From a virus, in the IMG/VR virus record IMGVR_UViG_3300031787_000981, positions 1 through 21,152 of that record: DNA of 21,152 nucleotides. One strand, written 5' to 3'. The translations under genes and the position numbers were made by a program. Shown here in pieces: positions 3,671-18,443 of the stretch. Position 1 is the first letter of the stretch. Every line of letters starts with the position of its first letter. The notes under the pieces were generated by a model that searched no databases, had not been told where the DNA came from, and saw only the letters and a list, made by a program, of their open reading frames with translations.

Positions 3671-3931
3671 TTATGAATGATTTATAATCAAACGGTATTC
3701 TAATAAATTATTCATAAATCCTTTGACCTCAATAGCGCATTTTAAAAGATATGCTTTTGTAAGTTTTTTTTTGGGTACACGATTGACATAGCTTTCGTAA
3801 ATCTTAAATTCCAAATCTGTGCAATGCTCAAAAATCGTAAACCATCCGTGCGTTTCTTCTTCGTGAGTAAAGTTATCTAAATGAAAATTTTGTTGTTTTT
3901 CATTAAACTCTAATCTGTAAGTTTTTTCCAT
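3671..3931 (-). CDS. Hypothetical protein (86 aa)
   Basis: I do not recognise this protein. It begins with a beta-like segment (TYRLEFNEKQQNF) and an acidic His-containing middle, then a basic helix (PKKKLTKAYLLKCAIEVKGF, 53-72). It is likely soluble. An AAACAAAC leader motif lies five bases before the ATG. It sits between the HTH and zinc-ribbon genes and probably shares their transcript. Confidence 0.55.
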   Translation of the reverse strand: MEKTYRLEFNEKQQNFHLDNFTHEEETHGWFTIFEHCTDLEFKIYESYVNRVPKKKLTKAYLLKCAIEVKGFMNNLLEYRLIINHS

Positions 3932-4878: not shown

Positions 4879-5833
4879 GCAAGCACTACATATCGTTTGC
4901 AAAGAGAGTTTGCGGTTCAAAATTTTTATTAAAATCTCCCACCCTATTTAAAATAATATCGTAATACTTTTGTTCTTTTTCCATTACTATAAATTGGCGG
5001 TTTGTATTCAAACAAACTATTGCGGTTGTTCCGCTTCCTGCACAATTATCTAAAACCAAATCGTTTTCTTTACTGTATGTTTTCACAAGGTATTCAAATA
5101 ATGCAACAGGCTTCTGTGTTGGATGCAATCCCACTTCGGTATTAAATTTCTGTATGCTACTTGGGTTGCGTAAATTTTCATCAAGTTTCCTACGTTCTCC
5201 ATCTTGGTTATAAAACGTTTGGTTATTTATCGTTTCGCTTGTTACCTTGTTATTAAAAGTATAAGCACAACGGCTTTTACCACTTTCGCTTCTTTCTTCC
5301 ATTATCGGGTAGTAATTTGCAGTTTCTTTACTAAAAACTAAAACGCTTTCGTGTTCCTTAAATGGTTGCCATTTTAGTAAAGCAAAATTACTTCCTCTAT
5401 TCTTTTGCCAAACCCATTCGTGTCTAAACCATTTCGGCTTACTCATTACCAAAGCACTTGTAAAAGGCTGTGAAGCCGTTAATATAATTGGGGCATTTGG
5501 TTTAGCCACTCTTTCGTATTGCTCCCATAGTTTGTCAAAAGGTATTATTGCGTCCCATTTACAAGCCGTTGTTCCGTATGGTAAATCACAAAGTATCATA
5601 TCAATACTTCCGTTTGGTATATCCTTCATAAGTTCCAAACAATCTCCTAATAATATTTCTTTTTTGCCCTCGCTCATTTTAATAAAAATTTTGTTTCGTG
5701 TTCCAATTTAAGTTTATCGTTTAATCAACCGTGCCAGCGTATAACAGCGGTTTTGCGTCAGTTTTTGCCTTTAACTTTTGTGCTAACTTTGAACATTTCG
5801 GAAGGCAAAAACCGAACGCAAAGCCCGAAAACG
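4873..5833 (+). mobile_element. Integron gene cassette 2 (DNA methyltransferase)
   Basis: The 961-base unit starts at TTATACGC after G4872 and ends at G5833. Its R'' box GTATAAC (5739-5745) is the exact reverse complement of GTTATAC at its left junction (4872-4878), extending to 9 bases (GTTATACGC with GCGTATAAC at 5737-5745). It is therefore directly abutted to cassette 1 in the same attC orientation. The gene inside is reversed relative to attC, which puts it in line with phage transcription. The right junction is G|TTCAATC, where phage sequence resumes. Confidence 0.65.
4886..5677 (-). CDS. Orphan beta-class DNA methyltransferase (N4/N6 amino type)
   Basis: This 263-aa enzyme would transfer a methyl group from S-adenosylmethionine to an exocyclic amino group in DNA. 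Motif IV is DLPY (31-34), near the N-terminus. The conserved HPTQKP is at 185-190. The SAM-binding motif I, DNCAGSGTT (210-218), is followed by the motif II acid in VMEKE (231-235). This IV-before-I order marks the beta class. Amino specificity (m6A or m4C) cannot be told by eye. No restriction endonuclease is adjacent, so it is an orphan that could protect phage DNA from host restriction. It lies inside cassette 2 in reverse orientation, with its stop 13 bases from the cassette's left end. Confidence 0.9.
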   Translation of the reverse strand: MSEGKKEILLGDCLELMKDIPNGSIDMILCDLPYGTTACKWDAIIPFDKLWEQYERVAKPNAPIILTASQPFTSALVMSKPKWFRHEWVWQKNRGSNFALLKWQPFKEHESVLVFSKETANYYPIMEERSESGKSRCAYTFNNKVTSETINNQTFYNQDGERRKLDENLRNPSSIQKFNTEVGLHPTQKPVALFEYLVKTYSKENDLVLDNCAGSGTTAIVCLNTNRQFIVMEKEQKYYDIILNRVGDFNKNFEPQTLFANDM

Positions 5834-14499: not shown

Positions 14500-15908
14500 C
14501 ATTTTGTTGCCATTAATTGGAAGTCATTAACTGCTTCGATAAGTGCTTGTGCTACGATTTCTTTAATTTCGCCCGCGCCCTCTTTTATTTGTGTTGTTTC
14601 AACTTTAATCATTTCAACTAACTTGTCGATGCTGATGTTGAAATTTTGCACCCCTCTGCTTTCTAATATATTTAATCCTGTACCGCCTTTGGCTTTATTT
14701 GTGGATGTTGGCGCTGGTGCGCTTGCACCTCCAGATTTCATCGGATTAATTGCTTTTGATGGTGCACCAACACCGCTTTCGGCTGATTTGTTTAATTTGT
14801 CGTAAGCGTATTTTGCGGCCATAATACCTGTTGCTAATGCTGCCGCACCTGCTGCCGCTACCGCAAACAAACCAACACCGCTTAAACCTGCAAAAAATGC
14901 CGTAGCCGTATTTAATAACCATTGCGCTACCGTTACCCCATCAAGTGCCGCAGCTAATGACCAAATGCCCCAAATGAATTTAGCACCTGTCCAAATTGCC
15001 GCAGCTTTCATGTATGTGTTGTATAAAAAAACTGCCGTTGCTACTGAAGAAAACGCACCTGCCAAACCCGCAATTACATCAATATTCTCTCTTACAAAAT
15101 TTGTAAACGACCGTATAACTTCAACAACACCAACAATAACAGGCATTAACAATTCGCCAAGCGTTAACTTTAACTCTAAAAATGCGGTGTTCATTCGGTT
15201 TAAATTTGAAGTTAAACTTTCTCCTGCTGCATCCATACCACCTGCAAATTCCTTTTTTAATTGTGCAGCAAATTTAGGTATGAAATCCTCTGACATTAAC
15301 TTGCCATCTGCAACAAACTTATTTAACTCCATTGTTGTCATGCCCATGGCATCTGCTGCTATTCCAAATGCGCCCTTTAAACCTGCATCACCTAATTGCC
15401 CACGCAATTCTTCCATTGACACAACACCTTTGCCTGCCATATCGGACAATGCTTTAAATGCTTGTGCAGTTTGTTGCGCTGACATATGGTTAACGGTTGA
15501 TGCCATTGCCATACCCTCAAATACATCTCTTACTGCTTGTCCTTGTATTGATGTGCCTTTAAATGAAGCCGCCAAGCCAACAAAACCTTGTGTTGCGCTT
15601 AATAAATCCAATCCCATCTTTTGCGATGTTTCACGCAAATAATTAAAATCCCGTGCGCCTTGTTCTGCCGAGCCACTCGCAAAATTCAACTGATTTTGCA
15701 ACCCCTCCATTGATGCGGTTGTGTTTACGATTTCTCTAATACCTAAACCAAGTCCAATTCCTGCAAGTGCTTTTTGTAGCTTGTTTGCAGAATTTTGAGC
15801 CGTGTTCATGCTCGTATTTAACTTTTCAGTTTCACCCGTAGCGTTACGGATGCCACTTGACATTAAATCTTTTAGCCGTAAAATATATTCAACCGATGTG
15901 TTGCTCAT
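14499..15908 (-). CDS. Tail tape measure protein
   Basis: This 469-aa protein carries the tape-measure core: a helical start, GIRE...TASMEGLQNQLNFASGS (56-80), VSMEELRGQLGDAGLKGAFG (163-182) and LMSEDFIPKFAAQLKKEF (204-221). Several hydrophobic segments follow between about 252 and 370, as usual for proteins ejected through the membrane. A flexible Gly/Pro/Ala part (380-410) and a helical C-terminus finish it. At this length it would set a short tail, roughly 70 nm by the usual 0.15 nm per residue. Its start overlaps the frameshift product stop as ATGA. It works with the sheath, tube and chaperone encoded upstream. Confidence 0.92.
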   Translation of the reverse strand: MSNTSVEYILRLKDLMSSGIRNATGETEKLNTSMNTAQNSANKLQKALAGIGLGLGIREIVNTTASMEGLQNQLNFASGSAEQGARDFNYLRETSQKMGLDLLSATQGFVGLAASFKGTSIQGQAVRDVFEGMAMASTVNHMSAQQTAQAFKALSDMAGKGVVSMEELRGQLGDAGLKGAFGIAADAMGMTTMELNKFVADGKLMSEDFIPKFAAQLKKEFAGGMDAAGESLTSNLNRMNTAFLELKLTLGELLMPVIVGVVEVIRSFTNFVRENIDVIAGLAGAFSSVATAVFLYNTYMKAAAIWTGAKFIWGIWSLAAALDGVTVAQWLLNTATAFFAGLSGVGLFAVAAAGAAALATGIMAAKYAYDKLNKSAESGVGAPSKAINPMKSGGASAPAPTSTNKAKGGTGLNILESRGVQNFNISIDKLVEMIKVETTQIKEGAGEIKEIVAQALIEAVNDFQLMATK

Positions 15909-16377
15909 TTCTTAACCTGTATTGTTCCGTTAAACTTTAATACCCACAATATTTCTTCAATCGAACGCGCCCATTCATCATCTGTTAGCGTGCTTGGGTC
16001 TACGTGGTAATAAAAACGGATGAGTGCATTCTGACGCGCAAACTCATCCGTTTCAAGTAACTTTTTTGCCGAGTCTAATTTTTTTTTAACTCACCTGCTT
16101 CAGTTGACAACATTGGTAGGATGGTCATTGCCGCGCTGCGTAGTGCTTTGAAGTCATTGATGATGGCCTCAACATCGCCCTCAACACATAACGTGCGCAG
16201 GAACGACTCAACACCCATCAATTCATCTTTAGCAATTAACGCTGATACGGTCTTGTATGCCAGTCTATCCATTTCGCGCAAGTGTACCGTTAATGGTGCG
16301 CCTTGGCGGTTAGAAACGGTTAGCGTGTAGATTTCAACACCGGAAAACTTTGCCTTTAATTGTTCGATATTTGTCAT
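15905..16377 (-). CDS. Tail assembly chaperone, -1 frameshift long form (157 aa)
   Basis: A run of nine A on the mRNA (16079-16087) precedes the short form's TAG. Slipping back one base on A-AAA-AAA after Lys99 joins the short protein to an open -1 frame (15905-16081). That frame begins KLDSAKKLLETDEFARQNAL and ends with WARSIEEILWVLKFNGTIQV. It contributes 58 residues and stops in an ATGA overlap with the tape measure start. This is the arrangement of lambda gpG/gpGT and its many relatives, where the long form bridges tape measure and tube subunits. No ATG-started gene would otherwise fill this gap. Frameshifting itself is inferred from sequence. Confidence 0.85.
16075..16377 (-). CDS. Tail assembly chaperone, short form
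   Basis: This 100-aa acidic-basic helical protein lies between the tail tube and tape measure genes, the fixed place of tail assembly chaperones. The N-terminus (IEQLKAKFSGVEIYTLTVSN) is followed by LREMDRLAYKTVSALIAKDE (33-52) and a helical C-terminus ending in GELKKN on the slippery run. It would hold the tape measure in solution while the tube polymerises, and would not be in the virion. It has its own candidate promoter at 16400-16430, with the ATG 23 bases past the -7 box. Confidence 0.82.
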   Translation of the reverse strand: MTNIEQLKAKFSGVEIYTLTVSNRQGAPLTVHLREMDRLAYKTVSALIAKDELMGVESFLRTLCVEGDVEAIINDFKALRSAAMTILPMLSTEAGELKKN

Positions 16378-16839: not shown

Positions 16840-18387
16840 TTATACTGATTTTACGAAGCCAACATTAATTTTGATAATACGTGCAACACCTAACGGTACA
16901 TTTTGCAATGTCAATTCAAGTGTTGATGTAGCCAAAACATCTTGGGCGGGGTTAATAATTATTTTGTGTGCTGATAACTCGCCATCGGCCTCCATTTGCA
17001 CTAATGGATTGTTTGCCAAGGTTTCAAAGTAACCGATTGTTGCTGCGGTTAGTGTACCATCTGCATTCACTCTTAACGGTGAACTCAAAGCAGGCAACAT
17101 GTTGGCTCTAACAACGCGTGTAATCTTTTGGTAAGTACGGTTGTTTTCGATTGTCGAGTAGTCGCTTGTTGGTGTTACGGTTGTTTTTGAGTCACTCCAA
17201 TATGACCCCGCAATGCCTGTTAACTTGCGTAGGAACACGTATGCGTAGTTGTTTAAACTTTCAAACTGACTATCAGCAAGTGCCGAATATAACTGACCGT
17301 TGCTGAATGCGATAGTGTCGAGTTCCGTTCCAAGTGCCATGTTGAATTTAGACACCCATGCGATTGACTCGCTTACAAGTGCCAATGATACTGCGCCAAG
17401 CATAGCACCGCATGAACCAACTGACTTTCCCGTTGCCTTGTAAATTTTATACCCTGCTGCAACTCCATCTTGTGCGATAACAACGCTTACATTCGGTGCG
17501 GTTTGAGTTGATAGGTCAACTAAACTTGCCACACTTCCCGTTGCGCTTATTTCAGCGTTTAAAATGATTTGCAACGGCTTGTAAACGGCTTCGTTTGCGT
17601 TTGCGATTGCTTGCAATGCTGCACATTGAGCGGCTGCAAATACAACGTTTTTTTCAAACACGCTTATTTGCTTAATTTCGCCCATGGCGAAGTTTTGCAT
17701 GGTTGTAATCGCGTTAAACGTGTACGTGCTTGCTTCTTCTTCGTACAAACCTACATACAACTGCCCTTTCGGTTGAATTCTAAAATACTCAACAATGTGG
17801 TAGTATAGCGTATCAATCCATGATGCAACACCAAGCACGGTTGAACCGCTACCTGTTGGTTGTGTCCACGTGCCTGTTGAACCTCCTGTGATTGTTGATG
17901 CGTATGGTGTGCCACTATTCGGGAAAATACCCTCTCCCGCTTTTGTTGTTACCAACAATGATGCGGTGCTATTTGTTGCACTAAAACCATGTGTTTGCGT
18001 GCCTGCGTTAATAGCTGCGGCAAGTGCTGCGGCTGCGGTTGTTGTTGATACAGCATCGGCAGTTGTTAAGGTGTATGTGCTTAACACCGTTATTGCACCC
18101 ATAATGCCTGTGTAAGTGATTGCCACCGTGTCACCTGCTGCGGGAGTACCACCCACAACCATCTTTGCAACGGCTTTGGTTTCGCCTAATGAATTGCCAT
18201 TAATACCAAGTGCTTCGGCATCGGCTACGGAAAAAATCTTTTTGATGCGGTCATTTACGGTGAACCCTGTCGGCAACGTTGCGCCCGTTGCGTAGTAATG
18301 CAAGTGTGCGCTTATGTAATCGGTGCCGGGTAAAGCACGACCTAAACCGCTTGTGCTTTTTACGAAATTTATATTTGGTAGTGCCAT
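16840..18387 (-). CDS. Contractile tail sheath protein
   Basis: This 515-aa protein is the sheath subunit that contracts around the tube, and it shows the phage is a myovirus. The C-terminal half holds sheath features: AGYKIYKATGKSVGSCGAML (316-335), the NYAYVFLRKLTGIAGSYWSD region and a C-terminal domain with TLELTLQNVPLGVARIIKIN that links neighbouring subunits. It looks like the DUF2586-type sheath. Residues about 77-185 form a Thr/Ala/Gly-rich beta domain (GDTVAITYTG...) inserted near the N-terminus, likely exposed on the sheath surface. A hairpin precedes the gene. The sheath assignment is strong. The insert's role is unknown. Confidence 0.88.
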   Translation of the reverse strand: MALPNINFVKSTSGLGRALPGTDYISAHLHYYATGATLPTGFTVNDRIKKIFSVADAEALGINGNSLGETKAVAKMVVGGTPAAGDTVAITYTGIMGAITVLSTYTLTTADAVSTTTAAAALAAAINAGTQTHGFSATNSTASLLVTTKAGEGIFPNSGTPYASTITGGSTGTWTQPTGSGSTVLGVASWIDTLYYHIVEYFRIQPKGQLYVGLYEEEASTYTFNAITTMQNFAMGEIKQISVFEKNVVFAAAQCAALQAIANANEAVYKPLQIILNAEISATGSVASLVDLSTQTAPNVSVVIAQDGVAAGYKIYKATGKSVGSCGAMLGAVSLALVSESIAWVSKFNMALGTELDTIAFSNGQLYSALADSQFESLNNYAYVFLRKLTGIAGSYWSDSKTTVTPTSDYSTIENNRTYQKITRVVRANMLPALSSPLRVNADGTLTAATIGYFETLANNPLVQMEADGELSAHKIIINPAQDVLATSTLELTLQNVPLGVARIIKINVGFVKSV

Positions 18388-18402: not shown

Positions 18403-18443
18403 AAAAAATGGCCTACCTACATTGATAGTTGGTAAGCCATTTT
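18403..18443 (-). terminator. Hairpin terminator between capsid and sheath genes
   Basis: Arms AAAATGGCCTACC (18405-18417) and GGTAAGCCATTTT (18431-18443) pair at 12 of 13 positions, with the mismatch a possible G-U, around a 13-base loop. On the minus strand the hairpin ends in six Us (18403-18408). It starts 19 bases past the capsid stop. No promoter is visible between it and the sheath gene, so it is probably partial and sets a high capsid to sheath ratio. Confidence 0.72.

Follow-up and report, generated by a model that had tools for sequence, protein, structure and literature searches.

The -1 programmed frameshift of phage lambda, which gives gpG and gpGT, is conserved in long-tailed phages (PMC5009743). 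In published cases of frameshifting, the 3' stimulator lies 5-9 nt, rarely 12-15 nt, from the slip site (PMC5009743). Elements further away can also act: in T7 gene 10, frameshifting depends on a portion of a terminator located well downstream (PMC5009743). A change of frame can likewise be produced by RNA polymerase: nine A's is the length of efficient bacterial polymerase slipping, and Thermus dnaX uses A9 in this way (PMC5009743, PMC3711429). In reporters, frame transition amounted to 40% with a nine-A cassette and 10% with a seven-A cassette (PMC3711429).

Here, the tail assembly chaperone gene of a virus record of 21,152 nt (the window, i.e., the whole stretch of DNA analysed) is compared with these systems. 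Conservation among relatives makes it very probable that a -1 frame transition in this gene gives two chaperone products.

The chaperone locus in the window

The structural module of this 21-kb record lies on the minus strand and includes the genes for the protease, major capsid, sheath, tube, chaperone, tape measure and baseplate hub. Judged by the homology of this module, the window belongs to a contractile-tailed phage related to Winoviridae; the record may be a fragment. According to the open reading frames and their phrog and Pfam matches, the chaperone locus is placed between the tube and tape-measure genes (Table 1). The match of the 0-frame chaperone to phrog_19076 is stronger in a homologue, L138 (6.5e-12). 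Elsewhere in the window, a DNA methylase gene (4886-5693; Pfam N6_N4_Mtase 1.7e-27) carries a perfect 18-bp inverted repeat near both of its ends (4918-4935/5676-5693).

Table 1. Features of the chaperone locus and its surroundings, in window coordinates.
Feature	Position	Strand	Basis
Tail sheath protein	16840..18387	-	phrog_907 1e-32
Tail tube protein, 142 aa	16408..16836	-	phrog_4579 tail protein 1e-14; Winoviridae homologues annotated 'tail protein'
0-frame tail assembly chaperone (gpG-like), 100 aa, C-terminus ...ELKKN*	16075..16377	-	ORF; phrog_19076 E 9e-4
A9 slip site, 0-frame TTA AAA AAA AAT TAG; heptamers A_AAA_AAA and A_AAA_AAT	16079..16087	-	Sequence; conservation
0-frame stop TAG (TAA in some relatives)	16075..16077	-	Sequence, relatives
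-1 frame extension (gpT-like part), 58 aa, KLDSAKK...VLKFNGTIQVKK	15908..16081	-	ORF; dN/dS; model
Conserved RNA hairpin within the extension; arms 16056-16042 and 16025-16011; GC-rich core 16050-16017	16011..16056	-	Folding, codons, compensatory pairs
Tail of the hairpin, rich in U (TTTTTATT); core and tail together resemble an intrinsic terminator, d = 16.9	16009..16016	-	Terminator score
ATGA overlap: extension stop TGA 15907-15905 and tape-measure ATG 15908-15906	15905..15908	-	Sequence
Tape-measure protein, 469 aa	14499..15908	-	Pfam TMP_3 3.8e-30; phrog_2335 6e-46
Terminator-like hairpin between the capsid and sheath genes (comparison case)	18409..18439	-	d = 23.7; conserved

The chaperone ORF reads GAG TTA AAA AAA AAT TAG at its 3' end, with a run of exactly nine A's. 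An earlier note, made from the sequence of the window, had this frame stop two codons after the run; the frame does stop at the run, but the TAG directly follows the AAT codon which holds the last two A's. From A9, the -1 frame is open for 58 codons up to a TGA that overlaps the tape-measure ATG, as that note had described with coordinates that hold on the minus strand, and the predicted shifted product is a fusion of 157 aa. Unless the frame is shifted, the gap ahead of the tape-measure gene is, again in agreement with the note, without a gene: the ORF list contains no other frame of at least 50 aa filling it on the same strand. In the window, the extension has no ATG, nor any GTG or TTG ahead of its core (the first TTG sits near the extension end).

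Judged from the window alone, A9 and the open frame are weak, unremarkable evidence. About 2.3 runs of nine or more A's are expected by chance per strand of the window; the probability of A9 in a 473-nt stretch is 0.043, and that of 57 open codons is 0.044. Actually, a second A9 run is found at 3772-3764 (minus strand), inside an 86-aa ORF (3671-3931) that reads through it; A9 alone is not diagnostic. The slip site is taken as real because it is conserved across relatives, not because it is rare in the window.

In the proposed scheme, most ribosomes would terminate at the TAG and release the 100-aa chaperone, and a minority of products would shift -1 on A9, gain 58 more codons and end as a fusion on the tape-measure start. 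The slip would be mainly ribosomal, and the two products may take the roles of gpG and gpGT, i.e., tape-measure coating and tube-subunit recruitment. The predicted fold of the chaperone (pLDDT 86) has as its best PDB match an uncharacterised structure (3fgx, Z 8.3), followed by YqbN (3klu, Z 3.5) and the HK97 chaperone (2ob9, Z 2.7), both weak. The extension is modelled as three helices (pLDDT 89). In the models, the C-terminal end of the short form is a helix and the extension begins with another; the two could plausibly form one uninterrupted helix.

Conservation of the slip site and mechanism of the shift

Relatives were gathered by protein similarity to the chaperone, tape measure and tube; the A run was not used as a criterion. 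Chaperone identity to the window ranges from 39 to 90% in the aligned set, a second clade (L215-L220) being more distant. The comparison of run and frame in homologues, proposed in the earlier note as a check, bears its reading out: A9 is exact in the 58 distinct relatives with a complete region and in all 64 distinct sites of a wider scan which accepted 7-12 A's, with no A8 or A10, although the sequences counted are interrelated and such counts overstate independence. Both Lys codons of the run are AAA in 64/64; elsewhere in these genes, Lys codons vary. The -1 frame spans 57-62 codons to the tape-measure start in all but one of the 58 relatives. L143 alone departs from this; its contig is that of L057, where upstream indels upset the automatic frame assignment. 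These single-base indels, at about 4056 and 4174 of L057, fall in the chaperone 0 frame and are probably sequencing errors; A9 is intact.

Codon substitutions show purifying selection on the extension. Compared with the window type, ten relatives as far out as L138 have a measurable dS and give dN/dS values of 0.08-0.35; in L215, the most distant relative, the estimate is saturated. In the main clade, identity of the extension is conserved down to 62%, and conservation reaches right to the A run (KL); across the same stretch, the 0 frame contains 3-6 stops. A Pfam search of the extension and the chaperone gave no match above cut-off, and the extension found no match among genome contigs, where the tube protein found one, a Saprospiraceae MAG (L214). 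With the fusion as query, the search of phage records gave a single partial match, and the tube protein was used instead to reach cultured phages, several of which are classed as Winoviridae.

Among these cultured phages, lotta8-1, FPSV-S27 and Peternella_1 have A_AAA_AAG one codon ahead of the 0-frame stop, and fF4 has G_GGA_AAG at the slip position. In all four, the -1 frame is then open up to the following gene, and recognisable extension residues are present in it in the first three. The frameshift is marked in none of the annotated records examined (lotta8-1, FPSV-S27, Peternella_1, fF4). In those of FPSV-S27 and Peternella_1, there is a gap where the extension lies; in lotta8-1, gp39, a 42-aa CDS labelled 'hypothetical protein' (L228 4045-4173; NC_048829.1 24223-24351), matches the distal portion of the chaperone's -1 extension, and its status as a separate gene is likely an annotation error. 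Two further relatives, L226 and the Saprospiraceae MAG, have A_AAA_AAG and A8G, respectively, as slip sites, followed by a homologous or positionally equivalent -1 extension. Both carry strong stems 5-6 nt after the heptamer, which is the textbook layout; for this reason, -1 ribosomal frameshifting is likely the ancestral state. In Meiothermus phage MMP7 (L232 3443-3911), it is the +1 (or -2) frame of the chaperone gene that stays open to the tape-measure start, and this phage appears to use +1 in place of -1. Bacteroides phage BS-TP1 and two faecal contigs were dropped as support, as their -1 frame is offset and a clear heptamer is lacking.

The gp39 annotation is one of two points which speak for an independent small gene, or for reinitiation after the TAG, as the source of the second frame; the other is a TTG or GTG ahead of the core in the -1 frame in 30 of the 64 sites. 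Even so, this is very improbable. The independent start that, according to the earlier note, would count against a shift is not a feature of the homologues: ahead of the core, ATG is absent in 62/64 and GTG/TTG in 34/64, while conservation extends up to the A run and the slip site is invariant. Still less probable, to the point of being negligible, is an assembly or sequencing error at the homopolymer, or a decayed gene. Homopolymers are indeed error-prone and the L057 contig has other indels, but the same nine A's recur in 64 distinct sequences from many metagenomes. The independent gene, error and pseudogene readings were hence rejected.

The -1 frameshift which the earlier note assigned to the tail assembly chaperone gene is thus upheld by the conserved run, the conserved -1 protein, the lack of a conserved start, the gene order and the heptamers of cultured relatives. 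Its description as 'programmed' calls for qualification: the -1 transition is strongly supported, but the ribosomal mechanism is only the most likely one, with slippage of RNA polymerase as a rival. The favoured event at A9 is -1 ribosomal slippage on A_AAA_AAA (or A_AAA_AAT), since relatives carry, at the same position, heptamers that are known for ribosomal slippage but not long enough for the polymerase to slip on a homopolymer. In the rival scheme, the shift would arise during transcription: stuttering of RNA polymerase on A9 would give transcripts with an additional A, from which the -1 frame is read directly. The run has the length at which bacterial polymerases slip efficiently, as in Thermus dnaX, and is of the kind expected for transcriptional slippage, a homopolymer of 9 or more A/T; it is kept at nine though a heptamer needs only seven, and the A9 clade has no conserved proximal stem. 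Polymerase slippage is nevertheless rather unlikely, as it cannot account for A_AAA_AAG (A6) or G_GGA_AAG at the same position in relatives, and the last two A's of the run also belong to a conserved -1 Lys codon. Because relatives use A_AAA_AAG or G_GGA_AAG there, the ancestral mechanism was probably ribosomal. A second slip at the -1-frame GCA AAA AAG, closer to the hairpin described below, was dropped, as it is not kept in most relatives.

The hairpin downstream of A9

The earlier note did not mention a hairpin within the extension. Folding predicts a strong stem downstream of A9 in 36/36 distinct sequences. In the window, its minimum free energy is -20 kcal/mol vs a mean of -9.3 for synonymous-codon versions, and 1 of 500 recodings is as low; in 16 representatives, z ranges from -2.95 to -4.95, with at most 4/500 synonymous recodings as stable. 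Codons in the arms are frozen (Glu GAA 59/59, Thr ACG 57/57, Asn AAT 59/59, Ile ATC 58/58), while those of the loop vary; in the arms, ACG and ATC are fixed even though these genes mostly use other codons for Thr and Ile. The codons of the U tail are equally constant (TTT 63/64, TAT 64/64). A compensatory change from A-U to G-C occurs in L052 and L138. Pair counts are above nearly all shuffled controls, and both pairing and the covariation score are above all slid controls. In the second clade, the 5' arm lies one codon earlier but the 3' end and the U tail have not moved; at two pairs, C-G and G-C are exchanged when L215-L217 are compared with L218/L220. In comparative terms, these codon and pairing patterns demonstrate that the hairpin with its U tail is a selected RNA element.

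An Rfam search found no relevant family. A pseudoknot between hairpin loop and spacer (GCAA/TTGC) was rejected, as it fails in L069/L070, L052 and L138 in the alignment read by eye. Unusually strong folding is also predicted at about 15872-15783 (minus strand), near the tape-measure start (z about -3.5 vs synonymous recoding).

As for its role, the hairpin could be a 3' stimulator of -1 ribosomal frameshifting acting at unusually long spacing. In all sequences it follows the slip site, relatives with other heptamers carry stems at the classical place, and T7 gene 10 provides a precedent for action at a distance. On the other hand, its stem begins at a distance of 21-30 nt from the slip site, depending on heptamer and stem-base definition, vs the published spacing given above; in the second clade, the 5' arm is displaced by one codon and the 3' end and U tail are not; and the element has the properties of a terminator. 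A stimulator is, therefore, a real possibility but short of an even chance. In the A9 clade, no stem or pseudoknot is conserved within 5-9 nt (about 15 at the outside) of the heptamer, the place where L226 and L214 have theirs. The chaperone frameshift is not defined by a proximal stem, so the lack of one does not bear on the frameshift itself.

Regarding termination, the window has a stable stem followed by a U tract with d above 0, and the score is positive in 13/13 sequences scored (d 1.0-24.3). Synonymous null sequences are rarely above 0 (0-3 of 300), and the observed score is reached in none of six recoding tests of 300 recodings each. A simple terminator scan, which allows loops of 3-8 only, missed the hairpin. 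It ranks third of 14 terminator-like sites in the window, after the one at 6812-6791 and the capsid–sheath site. The former (minus strand; d 48, CGCAGTTTCGTAAGGGACTGCG then T8) is probably an operon end. The latter is conserved: 28 distinct near relatives have it with other stem sequences (d 20-43), and in lotta8-1 and FPSV-S27 it reaches a still higher score (d about 50). By these scores, the phage group places terminator-like hairpins inside its structural operon, and because of this we lean to a tape-measure attenuator over a stimulator. The hairpin in the extension is, hence, regarded preferably, although with less certainty, as a putative attenuator or terminator of tape-measure transcription rather than a classical stimulator. 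Contrary points are (i) the long loop (16 nt); (ii) a U tract that contains one A and owes part of its sequence to the Phe-Tyr codons, so that it is not strong evidence by itself; and (iii) the weak tail of L017 (d 1.0).

If the hairpin attenuates, a frameshifted ribosome trailing the polymerase might perhaps relieve it. In such frameshift-gated antitermination, the terminator in the -1 part would end transcription into the tape measure unless a -1-slipped ribosome follows and holds the hairpin open. This coupling is unlikely as matters stand, but, were it true, one slip would set both the level of the gpGT-like fusion and that of tape-measure mRNA. The stimulator and terminator roles could also coexist, given the dependence of T7 gene 10 frameshifting on a portion of a remote terminator (PMC5009743).

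Comparison with known systems

A literature search of partial coverage found no prior description of A9 together with a distal terminator-like hairpin. Each part has its own counterparts. Like intrinsic (Rho-independent) terminators, the hairpin has a stable stem and then TTTTTATT, with d up to 24, and lies 18-24 nt past a stop codon; unlike them, it is found inside a translated -1 reading frame and has a long loop. With a conserved terminator-like hairpin so placed, coupling of recoding to transcription in a phage tail operon could be put to the test. Thermus thermophilus dnaX (A9, transcriptional slippage) and Escherichia coli dnaX (A_AAA_AAG) represent the same two A-rich slip-site types, but in another gene with another product logic; the ribosomal mechanism favoured for the window is predicted from sequence.

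Closer are the Winoviridae (Flavobacterium phages lotta8-1, pippi8-1 and FPSV-S27; Winogradskyella phage Peternella_1), which share the gene order and have A_AAA_AAG one codon ahead of the stop. Compared with the tube protein of L140, which belongs to the wider group of the window, theirs show about 31-42% identity, and the extension core is the same (ALIRFY...YVLKF in lotta8-1). They differ from the window in that they have a seven-base heptamer only, lack the distal terminator-like hairpin (d below -30) and are annotated without the frameshift. The slip site thus differs among relatives (A_AAA_AAG, G_GGA_AAG, A9), and the shift accounts for a gap which is empty or mis-annotated in several cultured Bacteroidota phages, as with gp39 of lotta8-1.

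With lambda gpG/gpGT, the locus has in common two overlapping frames between the major tail or tube gene and the tape-measure gene, as well as a short and a C-terminally extended -1 product; the relative fF4 even carries the lambda heptamer, GGGAAAG. The window is unlike lambda in its A9, which ends one codon ahead of the stop, its contractile tail and its distal conserved hairpin with a U tail. By this comparison, the frameshift of the window joins the known gpG/gpGT kind, and the gpG/gpGT rule extends to this group of Bacteroidota phages.
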